The position numbers and the translations under genes are program-made. 25,928 bases of DNA from a virus. Position 1 is the stretch's first letter. Each line of letters begins with the position of its first letter. Shown one piece after another: positions 1,326-22,145 of the stretch. Under the pieces are notes generated by a model. It was given only the letters and a program-made list of their open reading frames with translations, was not told where the DNA came from and did not search any database. The stretch is from positions 1 to 25,928 of IMG/VR virus record IMGVR_UViG_3300010885_047627, one strand, 5' to 3'.

Positions 1326-1331
1326 ACATCA

Positions 1332-1988
1332 ATGTTGTCGCATTTAGACCGCATTGTATTTTCAGACCGCTGTGAGGTAATAGAAGTTGTACCCTCACAG
1401 CGGTATGTGTATGCTATTTTCAAAAACGGTCGATCGAGTCTATACGAAGCGGCCAAACAAAACGGTTGGCGCATTCGATTCAATGAACAGATTCAACGCA
1501 TCAACAGCATCGATGTGATAATTAGAGAACCCAGAGAACGATTGATATCTGGCATTAATTCGTTTATAAAATCCACGGTACGTGACAATGTGGGCCTTGA
1601 TGCGCACACTGTAAAATGGTTCGCACTGAACTATCTGTACTTGGACAATCATTACGGACCACAATTTTTATGGTTGATAAATCTATCAAGATTTTGCAAT
1701 CCAGACACCAAATTAAATTTTTTACCCATGCGCAGTATCAAACTAATCACAGATATCAACAAAGATCCCGGCTTTGGGTCAGCTTCGCCTGAGTTGGCGG
1801 CCGAAATTGATCTGATCAAACACAGTGAGATGTACCAGCGCATTGATCAAGTCATATACGACACCATTGGTCAATCCATGACCTTTAGCCAACTGTGGCA
1901 ACATCTTAGACACACCGATCCTGCGGCCTACGAATACGTGATTGGGCATGCCCAACAACTTTTGAACACCACCTATGCAGTGTCCTAG
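1332..1988 (+). CDS. Sulfotransferase-family protein
   Basis: The 218-aa protein has a sulfotransferase phosphosulfate-binding loop, FKNGRSSL (residues 30-37), after a beta strand. A second PAPS-contact motif, REPRERLISGINSF (65-78), matches the 3'-phosphate-binding R-x-P-x-x-R-x-x-S pattern. The family moves sulfate from PAPS to sugars, lipids or small molecules; the acceptor is unknown. It starts 6 bp after the gp32 stop with no clear ribosome site, suggesting coupling to gp32. Its 3' end overlaps the radical SAM gene by 14 bp. It is shorter than typical carbohydrate sulfotransferases (about 250-350 aa) but keeps both cofactor motifs. Confidence 0.7.
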   Translation: MLSHLDRIVFSDRCEVIEVVPSQRYVYAIFKNGRSSLYEAAKQNGWRIRFNEQIQRINSIDVIIREPRERLISGINSFIKSTVRDNVGLDAHTVKWFALNYLYLDNHYGPQFLWLINLSRFCNPDTKLNFLPMRSIKLITDINKDPGFGSASPELAAEIDLIKHSEMYQRIDQVIYDTIGQSMTFSQLWQHLRHTDPAAYEYVIGHAQQLLNTTYAVS

Positions 1989-2859
1989 ACTAGATCACTT
2001 TGTACGATTCAACCCCAATGGGCGTGTTGGTCGTTGCGGACACATGACACAGGCCCCAGATTTTGCTTCGTTGGAAGAAATGGACTCCAGTGCGTGGTTA
2101 AAAAATATCAAATCACAGTTTGCACAACACACCTGGCCTACAGAATGTGTACGTTGCCAACAAGTAGAACAGCAAAACGTTGACAGCATAAGAACACATG
2201 CCATACGGTTGGACAAATCAGAAACTCGAGCAGACTATCTACAGGTCAGTGGAGTGTTGGACAATGTGTGCAATGCTGCCTGCATGACCTGCGGACCAAA
2301 TCACAGCACACGCATTGGCGCTCTTTCAGGCCCGGTATTTCCCATAGTGAACAACAGTGCAAGTTATTGGAAACTGCCGCAGGACCGTATACGGCATCTG
2401 GACATCAACGGTGGCGAGCCCAGCTACAGCAAAAACTATCGCCAACTGCTGAACAATTTACCGCCCAATCTACGCACACTGAGACTCAATACCAATGCCA
2501 ATGTGGTACTGGAAGAACTGACCGAAATTGCAGATCGTGGTATTGCAGTCACAGTCACAGTCAGTTGCGACGGCATTGGACCAATGCACGAGTTCATGCG
2601 CTGGCCCATCCAATGGGAAACTTTTTACCGCAACCTAATGACCTACAAAAGCATGCCGGTACAACTAAATCTCTGGACCACAGTTAGTCGATTGAATTTG
2701 CATGATCTGGCCAACATACAGGCATTTGCGCAGGAGCACGGAATTGACCACAGCTATGCGTATCTCAAGGAGCCGGCAATTTTGGATGTTGCCAACACAG
2801 ACCAAGAGTCCTTTGATGCATACATACAACAACAAAAACAATTGAGAGGCCTGTTATGA
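1975..2859 (+). CDS. Radical SAM protein with N-terminal auxiliary cluster motif
   Basis: The 294-aa protein has the radical SAM triad CNAACMTC (Cys99, Cys103, Cys106) and the GGEP motif (146-149) that helps bind SAM. Before the barrel, Cys3, Cys21, Cys58 and Cys61 form a second Cys set as in twitch or SPASM-type auxiliary Fe-S sites, here placed at the N-terminus. Such enzymes cleave SAM to a 5'-deoxyadenosyl radical to modify a peptide, sugar or small molecule. The ATG at 1975 overlaps the sulfotransferase end. Cys3 depends on this start, which supports it. The end overlaps the SDR gene by 4 bp (ATGA). The substrate is unknown. Confidence 0.8.
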   Translation: MQCPRLDHFVRFNPNGRVGRCGHMTQAPDFASLEEMDSSAWLKNIKSQFAQHTWPTECVRCQQVEQQNVDSIRTHAIRLDKSETRADYLQVSGVLDNVCNAACMTCGPNHSTRIGALSGPVFPIVNNSASYWKLPQDRIRHLDINGGEPSYSKNYRQLLNNLPPNLRTLRLNTNANVVLEELTEIADRGIAVTVTVSCDGIGPMHEFMRWPIQWETFYRNLMTYKSMPVQLNLWTTVSRLNLHDLANIQAFAQEHGIDHSYAYLKEPAILDVANTDQESFDAYIQQQKQLRGLL

Positions 2860-3395
2860 AAATTGCAATAACCGGACACACTGCAGGGATTGGTCAGGCC
2901 TTGGCTGCTGAATATGAACGGGCCGGGCATGAAGTTGTGGGCTTGAGCCGCAGACACGGTCACAACATACGCAACGTGTCCAAAATTTGTGACCTAGTGG
3001 AGCCCTGTGATGTGTTTGTCAACAATGCGCAGGCCGGATATGCACAGACTGAACTGCTGTTTGAAATGGCCCAACGCTGGCAGGGTACCAAAAAACAAAT
3101 TGTGGTGATCAGTACCATGATGACACAGCAACCGGTGTCCAGTATTGCGGGCCTAGACATGGATCACTATCGTTTGCAAAAGGTCACACTGGAACAGGCA
3201 GTACACCAACTACAGCATCGTCGATTGGGCATACGCATGACCATAGTCAGACCCGGATACATTGCCACACAGTCAGGCCAAACTGTGCCACCTGCGGCCT
3301 CAGTGGACAACTGGGCTCAAACACTGTTGTCTGTGTTGACCTTGGCCGAACAAAACAATCTCAAAATTCCCGAGATCAGTCTGGGCCCGCAATGA
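2856..3395 (+). CDS. Short-chain dehydrogenase/reductase (compact)
   Basis: The 179-aa protein has the SDR nucleotide-binding TGHTAGIG (residues 6-13), NNAQAG (56-61, the NNAG motif), a catalytic-position Ser86 (VVISTMM) and the YRLQK active-site Tyr105/Lys109 pair. The RPGY motif follows. It should oxidise or reduce a hydroxyl/carbonyl group using NAD(P)H. It is about 70 residues shorter than classical SDRs, mainly beyond the active site, so the substrate pocket is reduced. It lies between two radical SAM genes with 4-bp overlaps on both sides, which argues for a shared pathway. Confidence 0.82.
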   Translation: MKIAITGHTAGIGQALAAEYERAGHEVVGLSRRHGHNIRNVSKICDLVEPCDVFVNNAQAGYAQTELLFEMAQRWQGTKKQIVVISTMMTQQPVSSIAGLDMDHYRLQKVTLEQAVHQLQHRRLGIRMTIVRPGYIATQSGQTVPPAASVDNWAQTLLSVLTLAEQNNLKIPEISLGPQ

Positions 3396-4564
3396 CACCC
3401 AAAGATGCATTGACCAATCCGTACTTTTGTCCCATGCCCTGGACTGGACTCATGTACAACTTTGATGGTCGTGTTAAAAATTGCATACGCAGTGATCCGG
3501 CCACCGGCACACTGGGCAACATCTGCAACGAGCCAATCGAATCAATTGTGTTGGGCAATGCCAATGTGACCAAACAAAAAAATATATTAGAGCGCAAGCC
3601 GGCCGCTGGTTGCCATACCTGTTATGATCTCGAGCACGGCAAAACCGGCTTTGACATCATCAGCGATAGAATTTTTTATATCAGAGAGTTCAAAAAAACT
3701 CCGTTGGACACATACCAAACAGGTCAGCACAGTTTACAGGCCATTGATGTGCGCTGGACCAATCTTTGCAATTTTGCCTGTGTGTATTGTGGTCCAGAAT
3801 TCAGCAGTCGCTGGGCCAGCGAGTTGGCCATCAACCCAGTGACACCTTCGCCCGCACAGTTGGATCAGTTTCGAGACTACATATATCAACATGCACCTAC
3901 ACTGAAACATGTGTACCTGGCCGGTGGTGAACCCTTGTTGATGAAGGAAAATCTTGAACTGTTGAAACAGTTGAACCCCGATGTCAATTTGAGAATAAAC
4001 ACCAACCTCAGCAAAGTTGATACCGGAGTATTTGATGCTGTTTGCCAATTTCGCAATGTGCATTGGACTGTGAGTGTGGAGTCACAAGATGCGGAATTTG
4101 AATACATAAGGCACGGCGGCCGTTGGTCGGACTTTGTGGAAAATTTGGATCGCATACGCCGTTTGGATCACAAAATAAGTTTCAACATGTTGTGGTTCTT
4201 GCTAAATTACAACACAGTGTTTGACTGTGTTGACTATCTAACAAATCAGGGTTTTCACAACAACAGCTTTATCATTGGAGCCTTGTTGAGTCCAGATTAC
4301 CTAAACATTAGACATCTGCCAGATCATGTGTTAAACTTGTTGAAGTCCAAACTGGAAGCAAAAATTGCTCAGCGACCCGGTTACCTATTGGAAGACAGCT
4401 ATCGAAACATGTTGCACTATATACAGACACCGATTGAAAAAAAATTGTCAAACTCGTTTGACCGATTGGCCATGATGGATCAACGTCGCGGATTAGACAG
4501 CAGTAAAATTTTTACAGAACTATACAATTTTATCAAGGAAGAAAATCATGGGAAAACCATTTGA
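3392..4564 (+). CDS. Radical SAM protein with N-terminal twitch/SPASM-like domain
   Basis: The 390-aa protein carries the radical SAM triad CNFACVYC (Cys126, Cys130, Cys133) and GGEP (178-181). An N-terminal domain holds Cys13, Cys31, Cys45, Cys74 and Cys77 with the spacing of an auxiliary iron-sulfur site, parallel to the shorter neighbour at 1975. The N-terminal layout (CPMPW, then an FDGRV turn, then Cys) resembles SPASM/twitch folds usually found after the barrel. The gene overlaps the SDR by 4 bp and uvsX by 17 bp. It probably modifies the same substrate as its neighbours; the reaction is unknown. Confidence 0.8.
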   Translation: MTPKDALTNPYFCPMPWTGLMYNFDGRVKNCIRSDPATGTLGNICNEPIESIVLGNANVTKQKNILERKPAAGCHTCYDLEHGKTGFDIISDRIFYIREFKKTPLDTYQTGQHSLQAIDVRWTNLCNFACVYCGPEFSSRWASELAINPVTPSPAQLDQFRDYIYQHAPTLKHVYLAGGEPLLMKENLELLKQLNPDVNLRINTNLSKVDTGVFDAVCQFRNVHWTVSVESQDAEFEYIRHGGRWSDFVENLDRIRRLDHKISFNMLWFLLNYNTVFDCVDYLTNQGFHNNSFIIGALLSPDYLNIRHLPDHVLNLLKSKLEAKIAQRPGYLLEDSYRNMLHYIQTPIEKKLSNSFDRLAMMDQRRGLDSSKIFTELYNFIKEENHGKTI

Positions 4565-5606
4565 CGTAAGCAAGTTCCGCAAGGAAATCACAAAAAGCAT
4601 TGACGGATTGAGTATTGGATTTAACGATCCCACAGACTGGATCTCAACAGGCAACTATGCACTAAACTATCTGATCTCGGGCGACTTCAATCGTGGCATT
4701 CCCCTGGGCAAGGTTACTGTGTTTGCTGGCGATTCGGGCGCAGGCAAAAGTTACATCTGCTCAGGCAACATTATCAAGAACGCACAACAACAAGGCATCT
4801 TTGTGGTGCTGATTGACAGTGAAAATGCACTGGACGAAAACTGGCTCAAGGCCTTGGATGTGGACACGTCAGAATCAAAACTGTTGAAGTTGAGCATGGC
4901 CATGATTGACGATGTGGCCAAGACTATCAGTACATTCATGAGCGACTACAAGGCCTTGCCCGACGGCGAACGTCCTAAGGTCATGTTTGTGATCGACAGT
5001 CTTGGCATGTTGTTGACTCCCACAGACGTTAACCAGTTTGATGCTGGTGAAATGAAGGGCGATCTTGGTCGTAAACCCAAAGCACTCACAGCATTGGTGC
5101 GTAACTGTGTCAACATGTTTGGCAGTTACAACGTGGGCTTGGTGTGTACCAACCACACTTATGCAAGCCAGGATATGTTTGATCCAGATGACAAAATCTC
5201 CGGCGGTCAAGGTTTCATTTACGCCAGTTCAATTGTGGTGGCAATGAAGAAGATGAAGCTAAAAGAGGACGAAGACGGCAACAAAGTCAGTGACGTCAAT
5301 GGTATTCGTGCAGGCTGTAAAGTAATGAAAACACGCTATGCTAAACCTTTTGAAGGTGTGCAAGTTAAAATTCCTTACACAACAGGTATGAGTCCGTATT
5401 CAGGTTTGGTCGACTTGATTGAGAAAAAAGAAATGCTCAAGCGTGAAGGCAACAGCCTGGTGTTCACCACCAGTGATGGTGAAATCATCAAGAAGTTCCG
5501 CAAGGCCTGGGAAAAGAACGATGATGGTTGTTTGGACAAGGTCATGGCAGATTTTGTCAACTACAAAGAAACTGTGGCCACGGAAGAAACTGTCACCGAG
5601 GAATAA
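4548..5606 (+). CDS. uvsX: UvsX RecA-like recombinase
   Basis: The 352-aa protein has Walker A GDSGAGKS (residues 61-68), the glutamate-bearing strand IDSENALDENW (90-99) and Walker B VMFVIDS (145-151). The loop region ending GGQGFIYASS matches the DNA-binding part of the phage RecA family. It catalyses homologous pairing and strand exchange on gp32-coated ssDNA, loaded by UvsY, which is encoded further down. AAGGAAG (4535-4541) lies 6 nt before the ATG. The first 17 bp overlap the end of the preceding radical SAM gene. Length is near that of T4 UvsX (391 aa). Confidence 0.93.
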   Translation: MGKPFDVSKFRKEITKSIDGLSIGFNDPTDWISTGNYALNYLISGDFNRGIPLGKVTVFAGDSGAGKSYICSGNIIKNAQQQGIFVVLIDSENALDENWLKALDVDTSESKLLKLSMAMIDDVAKTISTFMSDYKALPDGERPKVMFVIDSLGMLLTPTDVNQFDAGEMKGDLGRKPKALTALVRNCVNMFGSYNVGLVCTNHTYASQDMFDPDDKISGGQGFIYASSIVVAMKKMKLKEDEDGNKVSDVNGIRAGCKVMKTRYAKPFEGVQVKIPYTTGMSPYSGLVDLIEKKEMLKREGNSLVFTTSDGEIIKKFRKAWEKNDDGCLDKVMADFVNYKETVATEETVTEE

Positions 5607-5619
5607 CAAGTTGTCGGAG

Positions 5620-6606
5620 ATGAGAAAAAATTTCCAGTTCATGGATTATACCAAATACAATGACAAAATTGCGGCAGACATTACAGATTTGCATATCAAT
5701 GATCATGCCACAGGATTTTTAGACAATGGTTCTAACAAAATACTGGATCGGCTGGATGACCGGCAACTGACTGTGTGGACACAGTACATTGTCAATGATC
5801 AAATCAAAACAAGATACCCAAATTTAACGTTCAATTTGGATATTGATTTGCCAAAAAGCACACTCATGTTGCCGACTGAGTTGGAACCAGTTGGTCAACA
5901 AAGGTTTGCTCCTAAAAAAGATTTTAAAAATTTTGTATTTTCTCTCAACGGAAACAACAACATAACTCGTCAGTTACTGATATCGGCACTATACAAATTT
6001 GGATGGTTTGACCCTGACTATGGCAGTAAACATTTTATTTTTACTCGAGCAGACGTGGATGGTAAAATAAATCATTATTGCGGCAGTGCCGAAAGATTTT
6101 ATCGTAAATTTTTCCTGTCAGACGAGCCCGAATTTGACCAATTCCTCAGCACAAGATTTGGGATACAGTATCGGTCCCATGAACATGCACACAATATGCA
6201 AGTGCTGGCCCACAGCATAGCACAGTCATTTGTGCAAATAGTGTCAGAGACCAGCGGCAGTTGTGGATATCCGTTTGTGACTGAAAAATTTGTCTATCCA
6301 ATCTTGGCAAGAACTCTTTGGGTGTCCTATGCACAACCAGGCTGGCACAATTATGTGGAAACCTACTATGGATTTAGAAAACACCAGATATTTGATTACT
6401 CATTCGATCTGATAACTAATCCAGTAGAACGAGTGATTGCTCTGTTGTCTATGCTGTCTAAATTTAAATATCTATCTCAGTTTGACTGGCACGATCTTTA
6501 TCTACTGGAGCAAGACACCATTGAATACAACTATGATTGGTACTTTAGCAGAGGCTATTTGAAAAATTTAAAAACTATATCTGAGGAGATGAATGTATGT
6601 CAGTAG
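5620..6606 (+). CDS. Glycosyltransferase-like protein
   Basis: The product is 328 aa from ATG 5620. A TTG at 5611 is an alternative, because GAGGAA (5598-5603) is 7 nt from it but 16 nt from the ATG. Residues 209-235 (SET, then VTEKFVYPILARTLWV) resemble the E-K-x-x-x-P-I-x-A-R/G segment that closes the donor site of many phage and bacterial glycosyltransferases such as fucosyltransferase-like families. A GWHNYVETYYGF stretch follows. The N-terminal half is unfamiliar. It sits directly after uvsX and overlaps the next gene by 10 bp. The sugar donor and acceptor are unknown, and the call rests mainly on one motif. Confidence 0.45.
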   Translation: MRKNFQFMDYTKYNDKIAADITDLHINDHATGFLDNGSNKILDRLDDRQLTVWTQYIVNDQIKTRYPNLTFNLDIDLPKSTLMLPTELEPVGQQRFAPKKDFKNFVFSLNGNNNITRQLLISALYKFGWFDPDYGSKHFIFTRADVDGKINHYCGSAERFYRKFFLSDEPEFDQFLSTRFGIQYRSHEHAHNMQVLAHSIAQSFVQIVSETSGSCGYPFVTEKFVYPILARTLWVSYAQPGWHNYVETYYGFRKHQIFDYSFDLITNPVERVIALLSMLSKFKYLSQFDWHDLYLLEQDTIEYNYDWYFSRGYLKNLKTISEEMNVCQ

Positions 6607-6857: not shown

Positions 6858-7309
6858 TGTGGTACAGCAAGGTTGTTGCTGATCTTGGGAATATTCCTGA
6901 TTTTATCGATCATTACGAAAAAGAATTGCTTGATGCCAAACGGGACTGTCGTGTTGGTGGCTTGGTTGAAAAAAACATCACGGCCTTGCCCGGGTTAACC
7001 GAACACCGATTCAATCAACTGCAAGAAATTGAAGCAGTGTTGAATTATCTCAATATTCAGCTGAGAAAAATACGCCGACGACACTTTCAAAAATATTTAG
7101 AAGGTTATGCCAGGGCATTGACTTCGCGTGATGCTGAAAAATACGTGGATGGCGAAGATGAAGTAATTGATTTTGAAACGCTGATCAACGAAGTGGCCCT
7201 GTTACGAAATCGTTTTTTGGGCATACTCAAAGCCATGGAAAGTAAGAATTTTATGCTGGGACACATAGTTCGACTGCGCACAGCTGGCATGGAAGATATA
7301 CAGCTATGA
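6857..7309 (+). CDS. uvsY: UvsY-like recombination mediator
   Basis: The 150-aa protein (T4 UvsY is 137 aa) is all-helical in appearance. Its C-terminal segment AMESKNFMLGHIVRLRTAG corresponds to the T4 UvsY end (AIKSRGFAIKHIQDMRAF). The family displaces gp32 and loads UvsX on ssDNA. The start is ATG 6857, overlapping the previous TGA (TGATG), with GAGG at 6845-6848. Synteny with uvsX and uvsW supports it. A basic patch (KIRRRHFQKY) at about residues 71-80 could contact DNA. The 3' end overlaps the methyltransferase gene by 4 bp. Confidence 0.8.
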   Translation: MWYSKVVADLGNIPDFIDHYEKELLDAKRDCRVGGLVEKNITALPGLTEHRFNQLQEIEAVLNYLNIQLRKIRRRHFQKYLEGYARALTSRDAEKYVDGEDEVIDFETLINEVALLRNRFLGILKAMESKNFMLGHIVRLRTAGMEDIQL

Positions 7310-8061
7310 TGTTTACTCAACCCGGCGCAAGCCATCAACACAGCCTTGAAATATTGAATTTGTTGTACGAATACGATGACTTCATGGCCAGTATACAATC
7401 TGTAGTAGATCTTGGATGTGGCAACGGTGACGATTTGGCCTGGTGGGCCAGCCGAGCCACCCGAGACGAAGTACCCCAAGCGTTGAACATAGCCTGTACC
7501 GGTGTCGATCTGTTAGCAACCTCAACAGTGGGCCACCGTTACCCTAACATTGTGTATCAATCGGCCAATTTCGAAGGAGTTATTGCTCATCCTAAAAGGG
7601 GGTTTGACATACTGTGGTGCCACGATGCATTTCAATATGCACGTAATCCTCTGCAGACCTTGAACAATTGGTGGCACATGGCCAGTGAAGGTGCCATGCT
7701 GGTGTTGTCGGTTCCGGTTACACAGCGCATACATCATCGTCAACTGGCCTACGAATTACCGTCGGGTTGTTATTTTCATCACAGCATGGTCGGACTGATC
7801 TACATGCTGGCCAGCAACGGATGGGATTGTGGGGCCGGGTTTTTCAAACAACTGCCAACTGACCCCTGGATACATGCTGTGGTCTATAAAAGTCAGCACC
7901 CACCATTGGATCCACGCAACACCAATTGGCATCACTTGGCTGAACTGAATCTTTTACCTGACTCGGCCAATAGCAGCATATTTGCACACAATCATCTGCG
8001 GCAACAGGATCTAGTGGTGCCTTGGATGGATCGTACAAGGATCAGCATGCATGTTGGTTAA
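7306..8061 (+). CDS. SAM-dependent methyltransferase (class I)
   Basis: The 251-aa protein has class I motif I VVDLGCGNGDDL (residues 33-44), an acidic residue after the second strand (CTGVDLL) and a motif IV-like FDILWCHDAFQY. The fold resembles small-molecule or sugar methyltransferases of the Methyltransf_11/25 type. No DNA methyltransferase catalytic motif (DPPY or PCQ) is seen, so DNA is not the likely substrate. It overlaps uvsY by 4 bp (ATGA). The gene ends before the late promoter at 8084, and no terminator is visible between. Confidence 0.75.
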   Translation: MMFTQPGASHQHSLEILNLLYEYDDFMASIQSVVDLGCGNGDDLAWWASRATRDEVPQALNIACTGVDLLATSTVGHRYPNIVYQSANFEGVIAHPKRGFDILWCHDAFQYARNPLQTLNNWWHMASEGAMLVLSVPVTQRIHHRQLAYELPSGCYFHHSMVGLIYMLASNGWDCGAGFFKQLPTDPWIHAVVYKSQHPPLDPRNTNWHHLAELNLLPDSANSSIFAHNHLRQQDLVVPWMDRTRISMHVG

Positions 8062-10773: not shown

Positions 10774-11613
10774 ATGATCAAAGTCTATTTCCCGCCAGGG
10801 TGTTACGGTACGTATCTGTCTCGGTGCCTCTATAACTATACCAATTTGAGAAAGGCATCATTTGAAGAATTTGCATTCAACAATGACGGAAGCAGTCATC
10901 AGTTTTGGTCAAAGAAAGAGGCACTACTGCCAATTATTCAGTACGGTCATATCAACACCTTGGACTTGAGTATCCATGCTGAGCAAGTTGTTGTTGTTCT
11001 TCCCTGTCAGGAGCATAGACTGGACTACTACAACAATCATCTTTTTAAACATCAACAAGGTCATTTGATAGAGTATATTTCAAGTCATTTTTCACAGGAT
11101 CAAGCAGATCACAAACTCAGAACACAATGGAATTACCTTAGTGGGTTTGATCACAATGTGCCACGGTGGATCATGAGAGAATGGTGCTCGTTTTGGATCT
11201 CGGATGTGCTAAACGAATCGTACGACTCAACAAAGTATTCCAAATTAAAATTTACAGCGTCACTTGATACCCAGGACATATTTGATAACTACATAGTCAC
11301 TTTCCAGGACATTGTATCAAAACTGGGCTTGACTATCACAGTTGATATTAGTATAATACACAATCAGCATTGTGAATTTTTAAACTTGCAAAAATTCCAC
11401 AACAGTCAAGTCAGGTGCCAACAATATGTACGTGATTTGCTTGCCGAGGAAAGCGGTACAATGATTGTGCAAAGTATTTTTGATGAAGCATACCTACAAC
11501 ATCTGTTGCGACAGAACTATATTGAAATACAGTGTGATGGACTTGATGAATTTCCATCAACTGTACAACAGCTCAGAACTATAACATATGAAACAAGCAA
11601 CAATCGTAATTAA
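10774..11613 (+). CDS. P-loop/sulfotransferase-like protein, function uncertain
   Basis: The 279-aa protein opens with a strand and a loop, IKVYFPPGCYGTYLSRCL (residues 2-19), positioned like the PAPS-binding loop of sulfotransferases. It is similar in layout to the start of the 16488 product (IVCYPSYAGAKFLINCL). The rest, including VPRWIMREWCSFWI, has no firm motif, and the second PAPS motif (R-x-P-x-x-R) is not evident. It may therefore be a diverged sulfotransferase or an unrelated P-loop-like fold. It is transcribed from a leaderless promoter and overlaps uvsW by 26 bp. Confidence 0.45.
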   Translation: MIKVYFPPGCYGTYLSRCLYNYTNLRKASFEEFAFNNDGSSHQFWSKKEALLPIIQYGHINTLDLSIHAEQVVVVLPCQEHRLDYYNNHLFKHQQGHLIEYISSHFSQDQADHKLRTQWNYLSGFDHNVPRWIMREWCSFWISDVLNESYDSTKYSKLKFTASLDTQDIFDNYIVTFQDIVSKLGLTITVDISIIHNQHCEFLNLQKFHNSQVRCQQYVRDLLAEESGTMIVQSIFDEAYLQHLLRQNYIEIQCDGLDEFPSTVQQLRTITYETSNNRN

Positions 11614-13048
11614 GGACGAAGTCAACATCAAGATCGAAGGCCTAGAACTGGATGCTCGCAGAGCTTTGGTTACGGCCTTCAAATACGACGTGCCCGGTGC
11701 TAGATACCTGCCGGCAGTGAGACTTGGTCGTTGGGATGGCAAGGTCAGTTACTTCCAACTGGGCGGATCAACCTATGTGAATCTCTTGCCAGACATTATT
11801 CCTATCTTGGAACGTTTCAACTACAACATTGAACTGGATGATCAAAGAGACTATTCGGTCAACTTTGAGTTTGCACCTGTGGATGAATCCACGTTCAATC
11901 ATGTGCTGTGGCCCAAAGGGCATCCCAAGGCCGGACAACCGGTTGAACTACGTGATTATCAGGTGGAGATCATCAACAACTTTTTGTATAGTCCGCAGTG
12001 TATTCAGGAAATTGCCACCGGGGCTGGCAAGACTGTGATCACAGCAGCACTGAGCAATGCAGTTGCACACTTGGGCCGAAGCGTTGTGATTGTGCCCAAC
12101 AAGAGTCTTGTGACACAAACCGAAGCCGACTATGTCAACATGCAACAGGATGTGGGCGTGTACTTTGGTGATCGCAAAGAATACGGCCGGCAACACACAA
12201 TTTGTACCTGGCAAAGCCTCAATGTGTTGTTGAAAAATACACAGAACGGAACAGGCGACATAACTATACAAGAGTTTTTGGAAGATGTGGTGTGTGTGAT
12301 CGTGGATGAAGTACACATGGCCAAAGCGGATGCATTGAAAACCCTGTTGACTGGTGTAATGAGTCGCATTCCTCTACGCTGGGGACTGACAGGAACCATA
12401 CCCAAAGAACCGTTTGAATCTCAGGCGTTAAAATGCAGTTTGGGCCCAGTTATCAATCAACTCACAGCCAGCGAGCTACAGGATCGCGGTGTGTTGGCTC
12501 AGTGCCACGTGAACATAGTACAACTGATGGATCATGCTGAGTTTTCCAATTATCAAAGTGAACTTAAATTTTTATTGGAAGAACCTGATCGATTGGATGC
12601 CATTGCCAAGTTGGTTCAACAGGTCAATTTGACCGGCAACACCTTGGTCTTGGTGGATCGCATTGCTGCCGGTCAGGGCCTGCTGGCACGGCTGGATGGC
12701 AGTGCAGTCATGGTGTCGGGTGCTACAAAAGCAAAGGATCGACAGGATGAATATGATGAAGTGGCCATCAGCGATGGCAAGATTATTGTGGCGACTTACG
12801 GTGTGGCCGCTGTGGGTATTAATATTCCTCGCATCTTTAATCTGGTTCTTGTGGAACCCGGAAAGAGCTTTGTTAGGGTTATCCAATCTATTGGACGCGG
12901 TATTAGGAAAGCGGAAGACAAGGAACATGTACAGATCTGGGACATAACCAGTACCTGCAAATTTGCCAAACGGCACTTGACCAAACGCAAACAATTTTAT
13001 CAAGAAGCCAATTATCCTTATACACAGGAAAAATTAGAATGGAAATAA
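11588..13048 (+). CDS. uvsW: UvsW-like SF2 DNA helicase
   Basis: The 486-aa protein (T4 UvsW is 503 aa) has an N-terminal substrate domain, then RDYQ (residues 122-125), Walker A ATGAGKT (143-149), DEVH (240-243), motif III-like GLTGT (266-270) and motif VI QSIGRGIRK. The family unwinds branched DNA, regresses forks and ends origin-dependent replication through R-loop removal. It overlaps the preceding gene by 26 bp and the SGNH gene by 10 bp. No other gene in the window has this motif series. Confidence 0.92.
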   Translation: MKQATIVIKDEVNIKIEGLELDARRALVTAFKYDVPGARYLPAVRLGRWDGKVSYFQLGGSTYVNLLPDIIPILERFNYNIELDDQRDYSVNFEFAPVDESTFNHVLWPKGHPKAGQPVELRDYQVEIINNFLYSPQCIQEIATGAGKTVITAALSNAVAHLGRSVVIVPNKSLVTQTEADYVNMQQDVGVYFGDRKEYGRQHTICTWQSLNVLLKNTQNGTGDITIQEFLEDVVCVIVDEVHMAKADALKTLLTGVMSRIPLRWGLTGTIPKEPFESQALKCSLGPVINQLTASELQDRGVLAQCHVNIVQLMDHAEFSNYQSELKFLLEEPDRLDAIAKLVQQVNLTGNTLVLVDRIAAGQGLLARLDGSAVMVSGATKAKDRQDEYDEVAISDGKIIVATYGVAAVGINIPRIFNLVLVEPGKSFVRVIQSIGRGIRKAEDKEHVQIWDITSTCKFAKRHLTKRKQFYQEANYPYTQEKLEWK

Positions 13049-13725
13049 CGCCCAAAATAGTTGTGTGTGGTGACAGTTTTTGTTCGGCCGACTGGCGCGA
13101 AAAGGATCACTTCAGTCAAATTTTAGAGAATCAGTACGGTTATTCAGTCACCAACTTGGCTCGCGGCGGTGCAAGCACAGTGTTGATCTGTTTTCAGCTA
13201 CAACAGGCCATTGCCTTGGCGCCGGACATAGTGGTGCATTCTCGCACGGCCGCGGGCCGCATAGAAATCCCCATGCCCGGCAAACGATTTAGATCCGACC
13301 TGGGATTGAAAAATTTCATCTATGCTAACCATTTTGAACTGTCGGCTCGTGGGCCCTATGCGGGCGATCTTGATGCAGCAATCTACGCCAACAACGTTCA
13401 GTCCATGGTCAACAACAGAGATCCGATGGAGTTTCTCAAGCTGTCAGACGAAGTCAAAACAGCCGTACAACTGTACGTGACACACATGCATGACTATCAT
13501 TTGAAAACCGAGACCGATGGTTGGCTCTATGAATATTGGGAATCCAAACTGGCGGCCAATCACATTCGATCAATTCCGTTTGACACAGTGGGTCAAGAGG
13601 CCTACGAGTTTAACGAACGAATACCACGCTATCCTAAAATTTATCATACTGACCGTGCCACGCAAGAGCAGGTGGCCAAAAATATACACCAACAGATACA
13701 GGCAAAGGTCGCAATTACTCAGTGA
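13039..13725 (+). CDS. SGNH/GDSL-type hydrolase-like protein
   Basis: The 228-aa protein has block I VVCGDSFCS (nucleophile Ser13 in GDSF), a block II-like ARGGAST (residues 41-47), and a C-terminal KIYHTDRATQEQVAKNI that may hold the catalytic His. Block III is not clear. SGNH enzymes remove or transfer acyl groups on sugars, lipids or polymers. AGGAA lies upstream of the ATG within the end of uvsW. Another SGNH gene of similar design sits after the helicase at 21387. The substrate is unknown; surface-glycan deacylation is plausible in this context. Confidence 0.65.
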   Translation: MEITPKIVVCGDSFCSADWREKDHFSQILENQYGYSVTNLARGGASTVLICFQLQQAIALAPDIVVHSRTAAGRIEIPMPGKRFRSDLGLKNFIYANHFELSARGPYAGDLDAAIYANNVQSMVNNRDPMEFLKLSDEVKTAVQLYVTHMHDYHLKTETDGWLYEYWESKLAANHIRSIPFDTVGQEAYEFNERIPRYPKIYHTDRATQEQVAKNIHQQIQAKVAITQ

Positions 13726-15931: not shown

Positions 15932-16491
15932 GTGCAGACATTGACATCGACGTTCCGGATCGTAGTAAAATACTAGAACTGATCCAGCACACACCTGCCA
16001 AGCAAGTGGTGGACGGTCGACCACGTCGACATAACTCTGGTATCTACATCACGGATATTCCAAGAGATCCTGAGCATGGCTGTGCTGCCATTGATTACGA
16101 AGAAGCTGAACAGTTGGGCTACTTTAAAATTGACCTGTTGAACATGAGTGTGTATCAGTTGATTCGTGATCCTGAACACTATGAAGAGATGTTGGCAACC
16201 GCACCTCCATGGTCAAGACTATGGACTGATCAATCGTGGGCATCGCAGTTGGTACACGTGGGCAACTATGTGGACTTGATGGTGGCTATGAAACCTGACA
16301 CAATACCCAGGATGGCTGCTTTTATTAGCATTATTAGACCGGGCAAAGCACATTTGCAACGAAAGTCTTGGGACCAAGTGTTTGCGTCAGTATGGGACGG
16401 AGATGACTCCAAAGGATTTGTGTTCAAACAGAGTCATGCCATCAGCTATGCAGCCTTGGTAGCCTTACATATGAATTTGACAAATCAATGA
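15928..16491 (+). CDS. Compact DnaE-like (Pol III alpha palm) protein
   Basis: The 187-aa protein shares several blocks, in order, with bacterial DNA polymerase III alpha. ADIDIDV (Asp6 and Asp8) aligns with PDIDIDF, and HNSGIYITD (35-43) with HAGGVVIAP. GYFKIDLLNM (Asp69) aligns with VKFDFLGL, IIRPGK (135-140) with FRPGP, and FKQSHAISYAALVALH (166-181) with FNKSHSAAYALVSYQ. The three polymerase aspartates are thus retained while the PHP, thumb and most finger segments are absent. Full DnaE is about 1,160 aa. Similar short proteins exist in marine T4-like phages. Activity is unknown. Both ends overlap neighbours by 4 bp. Confidence 0.65.
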   Translation: MSADIDIDVPDRSKILELIQHTPAKQVVDGRPRRHNSGIYITDIPRDPEHGCAAIDYEEAEQLGYFKIDLLNMSVYQLIRDPEHYEEMLATAPPWSRLWTDQSWASQLVHVGNYVDLMVAMKPDTIPRMAAFISIIRPGKAHLQRKSWDQVFASVWDGDDSKGFVFKQSHAISYAALVALHMNLTNQ

Positions 16492-17429
16492 TCGATTATC
16501 CTAACAATTATCCTAACATGGTAATAGTCTGTTACCCTTCCTATGCTGGAGCAAAATTTTTGATCAACTGCTTGGGGCTTGGTCCCGAATCAGTATTTCA
16601 ACATCAACAGTTGGCTCAACAACAAATTGACGGCCAATTTGACTACAGTGACAAAATTCGATATTTGCACAATCAATTGGACATAACTGAACAAACTCAA
16701 GTATGGAACGATTTAGGGCTAGGTAGTCCACAACTGTTGGGCATAAACACTGAGGATTTTGTCACCCAGTATCACGAAATTTTAGCATATCAAATAACGC
16801 CGGTGGTGAATGAAATCATCCGCAACAATCTAAACATGTTTATGATTACACATTCCACTGTGTGGCTCGACGCTTATTTGAAATTTTGGCCCAGGGCCAG
16901 GGTTATCTTTTTTTCCAATTATAAATCTTTTAGAAATTCTCGCCAACAAGCATCGACTGTGCCCCAGCAGCTACAGTCCGATGGTGGGTATCGTTCTCGC
17001 GCAGGCGAATGGGTATTTTTACCAAAAATTTTGCCGATATTGACAGATTATTGGAACACTGTGCGAGGCCCGGACTGGCCCACAGAACCGCCTACTAATT
17101 TTCAAGAGTTTGAAATGTTACCAGAATTTGTACAGCACGAGCTTAGACATCAGTTTAAAAATTACATTGTGCAATTCTTTAACTATCAGGATCTGCAGGA
17201 TCAACTGTTTGATCAGGACGCAGCTCGTTATCAAGAGATCTTGGGTGCCAACAGTTATGTTTGGGATGTGCAACAGAGCTACCAAACCGGCGCTGCAGGG
17301 TTTTTAAACGAATTTGAAAAGTGCAGACAGTGGCTGGGAGTTTCAGCAACCAACAATCAAGATCTTGTTGCGTATTTTGAACGATGGTTACGTGTTATAT
17401 CAAACAACTCTACGCACCAGAGTAATTGA
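16488..17429 (+). CDS. Sulfotransferase-like P-loop protein
   Basis: The 313-aa protein has an N-terminal strand-loop MVIVCYPSYAGAKFLINCLGL (residues 11-31) in the position of a PAPS-binding loop. A later ARVIFFSNYKSFRNSRQ (about 138-154) resembles the 3'-phosphate-binding segment. The C-terminus holds WDVQQSYQ and a helical end. The match to sulfotransferases is weaker than for the 1332 product. It overlaps the DnaE-like gene by 4 bp, and its last 30 bp are antisense to the reverse-strand gene. Confidence 0.45.
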   Translation: MIDYPNNYPNMVIVCYPSYAGAKFLINCLGLGPESVFQHQQLAQQQIDGQFDYSDKIRYLHNQLDITEQTQVWNDLGLGSPQLLGINTEDFVTQYHEILAYQITPVVNEIIRNNLNMFMITHSTVWLDAYLKFWPRARVIFFSNYKSFRNSRQQASTVPQQLQSDGGYRSRAGEWVFLPKILPILTDYWNTVRGPDWPTEPPTNFQEFEMLPEFVQHELRHQFKNYIVQFFNYQDLQDQLFDQDAARYQEILGANSYVWDVQQSYQTGAAGFLNEFEKCRQWLGVSATNNQDLVAYFERWLRVISNNSTHQSN

Positions 17430-20015: not shown

Positions 20016-21390
20016 CGTTCAACGATTATTTTTAGAAATGATGTTGGAAGACGCACAGAGCTATGTGCGTGTGCAGAACATCTACAACCCGCAGAACTTT
20101 GACAAGAGTTTGAGACCTGCGGCCGAGTTTATCAAAGAACATTCAGACCAACACAAGACCTTGCCTGAACGCACACAGATCGCTGCCACCACAGGTATCC
20201 GACTACAAGCAGTACCTGATCTAAACGAAGGTCACTTTGATTGGTTCATGACCGAGTTTGAACAGTTTACCAAACGTCAAGAACTAGAACGTGCTATTTT
20301 AAAAGCCGCAGACATGCTGGAAAAGGGCGACTTTGAACCAGTGGAAAAGCTGATCAAAGATGCAGTACAGATTAGTTTGACCAAGGACATGGGCACAGAC
20401 TACTTTGCTGATCCCAAGGGTCGTATTGAACGGTATTTCAACTCAGGTGGACAAGTTTCAACAGGCTGGTCACAACTGGACAGATTGCTGTATGGTGGAT
20501 TCAGTCGTGGCGAACTCAACATCTTTGCCGGAGGATCTGGTTCAGGCAAATCATTGGTCATGATGAACATTGCGCTGAACTGGTTGCAACAAGGACTCAG
20601 TGGCGTGTACATTACCCTGGAACTGAGTGAAGAACTCACCAGTTTGCGAACCGATGCCATGCTGACCAACATGAGCACCAAGGACATTCGCAAGGACATT
20701 GACACCACAGAACTCAAAGTCAAACTGGTGGCCAAGAAGTCGGGCAACTATCAGGTCAAAGGCTTGCCAGCACAAAGCAACATCAACGACATACGTGCGT
20801 ATTTGAAAGAGTATCAAATTCAAACAGGCCGGCGTGTGGACTTTGTGATGATTGACTACTTGGACTTGCTGATGCCTGTGAGTGCCAAAGTCAGCCCCAA
20901 TGACCTGTTTGTCAAAGACAAGTATGTGAGTGAAGAACTGCGCAACTTGGCCAAAGAACTTGGTTTCTTGATGGTAACTGCGTCACAGTTGAATCGATCA
21001 GCTGTGGAAGAAGTTGAATTTGATCACAGCCATATTTCAGGTGGTATATCTAAAATTAATACAGCAGACAACGTGTTTGGTATCTTTACTAGCCGTGCCA
21101 TGAAAGAGCGTGGCAAGTATCAGATACAGTGTATGAAGAGTCGAAGCTCGACCGGCGTTGGTCAAAAAATCGATTTGGAGTACAACATTGAAACAATGCG
21201 CATTACTGACGAAGGTGGAGAAGAAGGAGACCAGTATTCAAAGAAACCTTCAACGTCAATCATGGATTCAATCAAAGCCCGTAGCCAAATTGCTCCAACT
21301 CGTAGTGAGCCCGCGGACACAGGCAAAATCACAGCCGATGTACAAAGTGCCAAACTCAAACAACTGCTGGGACAAATCAAACAGTCATGA
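19993..21390 (+). CDS. 41: gp41-type replicative DNA helicase (DnaB-like)
   Basis: The 465-aa protein (T4 gp41 is 475 aa) has Walker A GGSGSGKS (residues 180-187) and Walker B VDFVMIDYLDLL. SQLNRS and the CMKSRSSTG segment near the C-terminus fit hexameric DnaB-type helicases. It unwinds the fork 5' to 3' and activates primase. TTG 19993 is preferred because GGAAG (19981-19985) lies 7 nt upstream and the first in-frame ATG (20038) has none. The start lies inside the primase gene. The 3' end overlaps the SGNH gene by 4 bp. Confidence 0.92.
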   Translation: MLKEYGLDVQRLFLEMMLEDAQSYVRVQNIYNPQNFDKSLRPAAEFIKEHSDQHKTLPERTQIAATTGIRLQAVPDLNEGHFDWFMTEFEQFTKRQELERAILKAADMLEKGDFEPVEKLIKDAVQISLTKDMGTDYFADPKGRIERYFNSGGQVSTGWSQLDRLLYGGFSRGELNIFAGGSGSGKSLVMMNIALNWLQQGLSGVYITLELSEELTSLRTDAMLTNMSTKDIRKDIDTTELKVKLVAKKSGNYQVKGLPAQSNINDIRAYLKEYQIQTGRRVDFVMIDYLDLLMPVSAKVSPNDLFVKDKYVSEELRNLAKELGFLMVTASQLNRSAVEEVEFDHSHISGGISKINTADNVFGIFTSRAMKERGKYQIQCMKSRSSTGVGQKIDLEYNIETMRITDEGGEEGDQYSKKPSTSIMDSIKARSQIAPTRSEPADTGKITADVQSAKLKQLLGQIKQS

Positions 21391-22145
21391 AAATATTGAC
21401 CTTGGGCGACAGCTGGACCTACGGCGCCAACGAGTACGGTCTAGATCCAGCACAGGTGTCGTGGCCGGCGCAGATGCGCAGTCGCTACGGAGTTGAAGTT
21501 GTAAATCTAGCTCATGGCGGATGCTCGATTCAACGTGCCATGCGCATCGGCATTGAGGAACTGTGTCGTGATGCCTCGTACGATCAGGTGATATTGCCGC
21601 TGGGTCCTGCTGCAAGAACAGAAGTTTTAAAAGTTGGAAAATGGCACCAAGTTTGGCCAAACTCGAAGTTACAGGATCCGTTGAATCAGTGGTTTACAAC
21701 GGCCTGGCATCCGTGGAATGATGTGCAACAGTTGATCATGAATTGTTTTTATTTCATGCACAGTGTACATGCCATGGGAATTCCTTTGTATATAACATCG
21801 TTGAGTGTGTATCTGAGCCAGTACACCAAAGAAATCAGCTGGATAACAGATTACCAAAGTGACAATGATTTTAACAGTTTGGGCATTCCACTTGACGAGT
21901 TTGATATTGGCATAAAAGATCTAGACAGAAAACTGAAATGTCTCAAGGCCATACATGATAAAAATTTGGTGTTGCAACCAGACTATTTTACCGATGCGAT
22001 CAAAACATATTATACCCTACCAGAAACAAATAAAAAATACAATTACAGACCCAATTTGTTGGAACATCCTAACGAAAACGGCTATACTGCACTGGCCGAC
22101 TATTTTGCAAACAAAATTGGATTAACAACGGCTCAAAATCGCTAA
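21387..22145 (+). CDS. SGNH/GDSL-type hydrolase-like protein
   Basis: The 252-aa protein has block I ILTLGDSWTYG (nucleophile Ser9), block II VNLAHGGCSIQR, and a block V-like LEHPNENGYTALADYFANKI that supplies a plausible catalytic His. The block III Asn is unclear (LPLGPAARTE). It shares the design of the 13039 gene but is longer. It would hydrolyse or transfer acyl esters. It starts in an ATGA overlap with the helicase gene and ends at the late promoter, whose TAA is part of GCTAAATA. Confidence 0.72.
   Translation: MKILTLGDSWTYGANEYGLDPAQVSWPAQMRSRYGVEVVNLAHGGCSIQRAMRIGIEELCRDASYDQVILPLGPAARTEVLKVGKWHQVWPNSKLQDPLNQWFTTAWHPWNDVQQLIMNCFYFMHSVHAMGIPLYITSLSVYLSQYTKEISWITDYQSDNDFNSLGIPLDEFDIGIKDLDRKLKCLKAIHDKNLVLQPDYFTDAIKTYYTLPETNKKYNYRPNLLEHPNENGYTALADYFANKIGLTTAQNR

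Follow-up and report, generated by a model that had tools for sequence, protein, structure and literature searches.

Several phages rich in radical SAM (rSAM) genes have been described. The T4-like phage TARA_ERS488813_N000010 encodes an A-type Fe-S carrier along with 12 rSAM genes (PMC5332604), the structural cluster of Aeromonas phage 332-Vera includes eight (PMC12390700), and in pelagimyophages rSAM cassettes lie within a glycosyltransferase-rich host-recognition region (PMC7029224). For the phages considered below, the nearest cultured relatives of gp32 and uvsX come from jumbo phages of the T4-like kind, namely Phosso (469 kb), Vibrio phage 2.275.O (349 kb), CBB, GAP32 and PA5oct. In Phosso and Vibrio phage 2.275.O, gp32 adjoins uvsX, which is followed by uvsY in the Vibrio phage, and in Ettore two unrelated ORFs separate gp32 from uvsX; none of these three carries the cassette studied here. 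To our knowledge, no substrate has been established for the twitch-type enzymes of rSAM-rich phages.

The DNA that we analyzed, hereafter the window, is a virus record of 25,928 bases from IMG/VR. In it, the genes for the single-stranded DNA binding protein gp32 (342-1325; phrog_1192, E = 8e-68) and for the UvsX recombinase (4548-5606; phrog_97, E = 1e-65) border an insertion slot (1326-4547) occupied by four genes, all on the + strand. They are ST, for a PAPS-dependent sulfotransferase with a predicted carbohydrate-sulfotransferase-like fold (1332-1988, 218 aa); rSAM1, for a twitch-type radical SAM enzyme (1975-2859, 294 aa); SDR, for a short NAD(P)-dependent dehydrogenase/reductase (2856-3395, 179 aa); and rSAM2, for a second twitch-type radical SAM enzyme (3392-4564, 390 aa). 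A gap of 6 bases separates gp32 from ST, and from there on the genes overlap, by 14 bases for ST/rSAM1, 4 for rSAM1/SDR, 4 for SDR/rSAM2 and 17 for rSAM2/uvsX. Because of these overlaps, the four genes are almost certainly co-translated. Scanning for promoters and terminators revealed nothing exceeding chance. The original prediction of four overlapping genes with intact cofactor motifs held: all four ORFs were verified as complete, relatives keep their order, and the motifs are conserved in alignments of relatives for all four proteins.

The sulfotransferase was the least obvious of the four, as the window ST matched no family in Pfam, NCBIfam or PHROGs. Indeed, only 3 of its 34 relatives matched Pfam Sulfotransfer_2, with E = 0.012 or weaker and short of the cut-off, and a profile search with the same family that covered the long relatives gave no match in the control genomes. 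In the alignment of the 34 relatives, K31 and R65-x-P67-x2-R70-x2-S73-G74 were invariant. K31, R65 and S73 correspond, by motif rather than by coordinates, to the 5'-phosphosulfate loop Lys and the 3'-phosphate Arg...Ser of PAPS-binding sites. An AlphaFold2 model built from the 34 relatives reached a pLDDT of 87, and its top 35 rows against the PDB were all sulfotransferases (Z 3.6-5.4), led by the heparan-sulfate 3-OST/NDST enzymes with Z up to 5.4 (4.9 A over 151 residues). In BFVD, the model matched the phage "Sulfotransferase family" protein A0A6J7WGY4 (E = 5e-15, TM 0.83, 32% identity). Thus, on a point where family models were silent, the predicted fold and the BFVD match confirmed the proposed sulfotransferase.

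Both radical SAM enzymes keep the CX3CX2C motif of the superfamily, as C99-x3-C103-x2-C106 in rSAM1 and C126-x3-C130-x2-C133 in rSAM2, invariant among relatives in each case. Each also has four N-terminal cysteines assigned to an auxiliary Fe-S cluster, at positions 3, 21, 58 and 61 of rSAM1, invariant or nearly so, and at positions 13, 31, 74 and 77 of rSAM2, all invariant. rSAM2 passed the curated cut-off of 170 bits of the NCBIfam family NF033640 (236.9 bits, E = 4e-70) and matched Pfam Radical_SAM (E = 8e-14). rSAM1 scored 138.4 bits against NF033640 (E = 3e-40), under the cut-off, and is therefore related to this family without being filed as a member. We know of no NF033640 member with a proven substrate. 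The nearest solved structure for both enzymes was the peptide maturase SkfB, a weak and generic similarity (E = 0.002-0.006).

SDR passed the Pfam adh_short cut-off (28.0 bits for a cut-off of 26.6), and TGxTAGIG, NNAQ, S86, Y105 and K109 were invariant among its relatives. It thus has the TGxxxGxG, NNAG-like and YxxxK elements of a classical SDR, with an unusually short length of 179 aa. Searching bacteria with SDR returned three distant loci (33-37% identity), informative solely through a neighbouring gene, each having an oxygenase-like gene immediately or two genes upstream, which passed its Pfam cut-off only in L168 and was judged by eye in the other two. The bacterial search with rSAM2 found no relative.

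Relatives were gathered by scanning IMG/VR with rSAM2, ST and SDR, and the contigs obtained are fragments of uncultured phages. The order gp32-ST-rSAM1-SDR-rSAM2-uvsX was kept in most of the 80 viral contigs that the rSAM2 scan yielded and in 98 of the 121 loci of the later scans, these sets overlapping. One contig (L001) was 100% identical to the window in protein sequence across the cassette and its flanks. In a deeper relative (L229), the order was also kept, with identities of 65% for gp32, 78% for uvsX and 44-59% for the cassette genes. dN/dS values were 0.13-0.18 for ST and 0.05-0.11 for rSAM1, SDR and rSAM2; all four genes are under purifying selection. In cultured phages, tblastn against INPHARED found nothing for ST, rSAM1 or SDR; two rSAM matches had 22% identity, and so cultured phages are uninformative on the cassette.

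Variants of the cassette were also found. In some relatives, a 157-aa gene lies between rSAM1 and SDR; its product is probably a 2-oxoglutarate/Fe oxygenase, as suggested by a weak match to Asp/Asn beta-hydroxylase (E = 0.014) and an invariant HxD...H...R set. In loci of the L008 type, ST and rSAM1 were jointly swapped for another rSAM (~25% identity) and an unrelated protein of 185 aa, SDR and rSAM2 being retained. The model of the 185-aa protein (pLDDT 60) had sulfotransferases among its weak structural matches. In five contigs, an additional SDR (34-36%) occurred along with a diverged rSAM2 (44-45%), and in L068 rSAM2 occurred without the rest of the cassette.

An unbiased view of inheritance came from the 80 loci nearest by uvsX alone, of which the 61 with a complete gp32-uvsX interval were counted. 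All four genes were present, in the same order, in 10 intervals, two genes were present in 1 (L300, with ST and rSAM1 only) and none in 50. The 50 cassette-less intervals comprised 18 empty ones, with a gap under 110 bases, and 32 containing other genes; in close relatives with an empty slot the gap was 60-80 bases. The other occupants of the slot included a hexapeptide transferase, a fatty-acid desaturase, GDSL hydrolases, and amidinotransferase-like and AMP-binding genes. In a permutation test, 0 of 100,000 trials reached 10 complete sets. The original prediction had taken the four genes for one pathway, and would have been undermined had they seldom occurred together in relatives; this all-or-none pattern is the opposite result and strongly supports it.

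Presence of the cassette was scattered on the uvsX tree: its 11 rows require 11 changes, and well-supported branches force at least 5 of these. The cassette occurs in L233 and L235, and the slot is empty in L234, L236 and L239, whose UvsX proteins are 95-97% identical to that of the window. One pair was L295, with the cassette, and L293, with three unrelated genes in its place. Their UvsX proteins are identical and their flanking DNA is ~90-93% identical, yet homology breaks off no more than a few bases from the gp32 stop and picks up again 4 bases ahead of the uvsX start, none being detected in between. Distances of the cassette genes correlated with one another at r 0.40-0.62, as against r 0.23-0.35 with uvsX. 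From the interval counts, the scattered presence, the breaks at the L295/L293 borders and these correlations, we conclude that the four genes make up one unit and move as a whole block at a gp32-uvsX hot spot, probably via recombination in the flanking genes. The predicted position between gp32 and uvsX stands, with one correction: the slot is an insertion hot spot and not a fixed part of the replication operon, being empty or occupied by other tailoring genes in close relatives.

Two candidates for further pathway members were rejected, as neither was associated with the cassette: the methyltransferase at 7306-8061 (Fisher p 0.70) and the rSAM between uvsX and uvsY (Fisher p 0.30). The gene at 5623-6603 had no Pfam match, and its family had no PDB match.

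As for the carriers, the window gp32 is ~51% identical to its nearest cultured relatives, which are from Pseudomonas jumbo phages, and its UvsX is 63-69% identical to those of cultured jumbo phages. By these two proteins, they are uncultured phages with kinship to the jumbo T4-like group, and the contig names may point to lake and other freshwater samples. Cassette-bearing long contigs of 145, 149, 183 and 340 kb had 15, 9, 14 and 13 twitch rSAM matches, respectively, several of them weak. Two A-type Fe-S carrier genes were present in each of two long relatives, and two long relatives had a six-rSAM island near tail-region genes, one island including a GDSL hydrolase and a carbamoyltransferase verified as NodU-type. 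Further rSAM genes were located at the gp47/gp46 and uvsX/uvsY junctions. The carriers, as Fe-S supply, and the 9-15 rSAM matches per long contig were counted in favor of the main reading given below.

What might such a unit make? From the enzyme classes, rSAM1 and rSAM2, with one extra Fe-S cluster each, would attack unactivated C-H positions with 5'-deoxyadenosyl radicals, leading to oxidation or rearrangement, SDR would reduce or oxidise the resulting carbonyl or alcohol, and ST would cap a hydroxyl (or an amine) with a sulfate group taken from the host's PAPS. The putative 157-aa non-haem Fe/2-oxoglutarate hydroxylase of some relatives would add a hydroxyl. The oxidation, radical chemistry and sulfation originally predicted follow from the enzyme classes; the order of these steps and the choice among a sugar, a peptide or a nucleotide as substrate are conjectural. 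With less assurance, we suggest that the substrate may be a glycan sugar, of either a host envelope polysaccharide, whose modification could block superinfection, or a virion glycan. Early-to-middle expression along with the replication genes would fit modification of the host envelope slightly better. Our main reading, to which we give a probability of about 45%, is that the cassette is one transferable biosynthetic unit tailoring a surface glycan sugar of the host envelope or the virion.

A glycan is favored because the ST fold is nearest to heparan-sulfate sulfotransferases, because the slot also hosts the hexapeptide transferase, desaturase and GDSL hydrolases, and because rSAM islands lie near tail-region genes of the same phages. 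The location of pelagimyophage rSAM cassettes in the host-recognition region argues in the same direction (PMC7029224). Joint replacement of ST and rSAM1 with retention of SDR and rSAM2 is what would be expected of an interchangeable decoration. We counted several observations against a glycan. The cassette contains neither a glycosyltransferase nor an NDP-sugar enzyme, the modest Z of ~5 leaves the ST acceptor unfixed, the nearest solved radical SAM enzyme matures a peptide, SDR is of the short classical and not of the extended NDP-sugar type, and the amidinotransferase-like and AMP-binding genes of the slot fit small-molecule pathways equally well.

The main rival is one that we consider less likely while according it a real share: the cassette would make or modify a RiPP-like peptide or a free small molecule, such as a signalling or inhibitory compound, and not a glycan. 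Peptide maturation is a frequent role of twitch/SPASM enzymes, SkfB is the closest solved relative of both rSAMs, and AMP-binding and amidinotransferase-like enzymes are among the slot occupants. Yet the overlapping genes leave no space in which a linked precursor peptide could be encoded: neither in the window nor in the other tiled loci was there a free ORF between the genes, although a precursor could be unlinked. Moreover, no leader-binding domain was seen, and the likeness to SkfB is weak and generic.

The setting among replication and recombination genes would be explained if the enzymes hypermodified phage DNA bases or nucleotides, and the slot between gp32 and uvsX, with other rSAMs at gp47/gp46 and uvsX/uvsY, is in line with this idea. 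We nevertheless find it improbable. The usual entry to hydroxymethylpyrimidines is a thymidylate-synthase-type enzyme, and a PF00303 search for such an hmU-type hydroxymethylase was positive in 9 of 14 control genomes but in none of the four long relatives, which span 145-340 kb and may be incomplete. Near-identical relatives have an empty slot, and we know of no sulfated DNA bases.

There is a similarly small chance that the four genes serve no single pathway, being accessory genes that landed in the same hot spot and hitchhike through flank recombination. The slot does take many unrelated genes, homology of the flanks alone can move any block, ST and rSAM1 are swapped in some loci, and partial sets exist in L068 (rSAM2) and L300 (ST and rSAM1). 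Against this stand the all-or-none presence, the overlapping starts, the purifying selection on each gene and an order that persists in L229, where protein identity is as low as 44-59%. Finally, auxiliary metabolic genes are common in phages and the bacterial SDR relatives have tailoring-like surroundings that include oxygenase-like genes, but supplementation of an existing host pathway during infection, for example for a sulfated host sugar or lipid, is very improbable, since the bacterial searches gave no more than three distant relatives for SDR and none for rSAM2, and no host pathway is thus visible.

We advance as a tentative proposal, somewhat short of an even chance, that the cassette is a self-contained pathway whose product is without precedent, either a sulfated and radically rearranged group attached to a surface molecule of the host or the virion, or a new sulfated small molecule, and that a large group of uncultured phages trades it as an interchangeable block at the precise hot spot within their replication-recombination operon. 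Every component falls in a described family, and accessory cassettes carried by phages have precedents. Because the four-gene unit emerges from inheritance and not from proximity alone, it is a defined minimal set open to expression and assay. Near-identical phages that differ in a whole tailoring block also constitute natural near-isogenic pairs for studying function, with questions such as superinfection exclusion, receptor change and defence evasion. More generally, a core T4-type gene junction can serve as an exchange site for biosynthetic modules.

In the open-access literature, we found no report of the four-gene unit or of the gp32-uvsX exchange site, in agreement with the original prediction, which knew of no T4-type system carrying such a set at such a position; phages rich in rSAM genes are already on record. 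These phages (PMC5332604, PMC12390700, PMC7029224) are comparable in their many rSAMs, their Fe-S carriers and their rSAM islands near tail genes, and 332-Vera is placed in a different family (Chimallinviridae); the sulfotransferase unit and its hot spot are not described in the accessible text of the three reports. Rak2-like and Phosso-type jumbo phages have the nearest cultured gp32 and uvsX and share the gp32-uvsX order. With heparan-sulfate 3-O-sulfotransferases and NDST, its best solved structural matches, ST has the PAPS-binding fold in common, at 7-14% identity and a Z of ~5, with an acceptor region that is not comparable. The fold is likewise common to ST and the phage sulfotransferases of Prochlorococcus phage P-SSM7 (E3SP23) and of an uncultured Caudovirales (A0A6J7WGY4). 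Finally, both rSAMs share the N-terminal auxiliary-cluster cysteines and the CX3CX2C motif with the NF033640 twitch radical SAM proteins, but here two diverged copies are combined in one operon with a sulfotransferase and an SDR.

The interval between gp32 and uvsX, which holds the four-gene cassette in the window, is a general hot spot. This was seen in the corresponding interval of L234, L236, L238, L242, L254, L289, L293, L301, and L307, loci of uncultured viral relatives, where it was either empty or occupied by other genes. The proteins encoded there were a GDSL hydrolase, a hexapeptide transferase, a fatty-acid desaturase, an AMP-binding protein, and another radical SAM protein, together with amidinotransferase-like proteins and unknown proteins. 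At a further locus, L068, gp32 was followed by rSAM2 alone, the twitch-type radical SAM gene that ends the cassette, and an inverted repeat (CCGCTGTGAGG/CCTCACAGCGG) lay ahead of it (L068:1780-1960). This repeat is perhaps a scar or a terminator left once the other three genes were lost.

The gene at window 5623-6603 encodes a conserved protein with no family match. It follows uvsX in the window, and its relatives in other phages lie between gp32 and uvsX, indicating that this gene also moves between slots. Two further SGNH/GDSL-like hydrolases were found amid core replication genes (window 13039-13725 and 21387-22145, the latter with a GDSL E-value of 6e-5). Several recurrent families in these phages have a glycine-rich, P-loop-like motif at the protein start, as in FPPGCYGTYL or YPSYAGAKFL; they include proteins with no family match at window 10774-11613, window 16488-17429, and L238:6097-7017.

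Radical SAM genes also lie between the apparent recombination nuclease genes gp47 and gp46 (L231:7001-8158 and G001:C1:58502-59743); thus, several core-gene junctions hold radical SAM inserts. Tail-side islands of six radical SAM genes occur in a 145-kb relative (L083:8839-15060) and a 183-kb relative (L097, G002:120167-129394). The former additionally carries a verified NodU-type carbamoyltransferase and a GDSL hydrolase; amidinotransferase-like genes were identified there by eye. Two long relative contigs each encode two A-type Fe-S carriers (PF01521; G008:C1:23708-24004 and 283765-284067, G009:C1:39486-39785 and 111575-111877), which probably supply numerous radical SAM enzymes.
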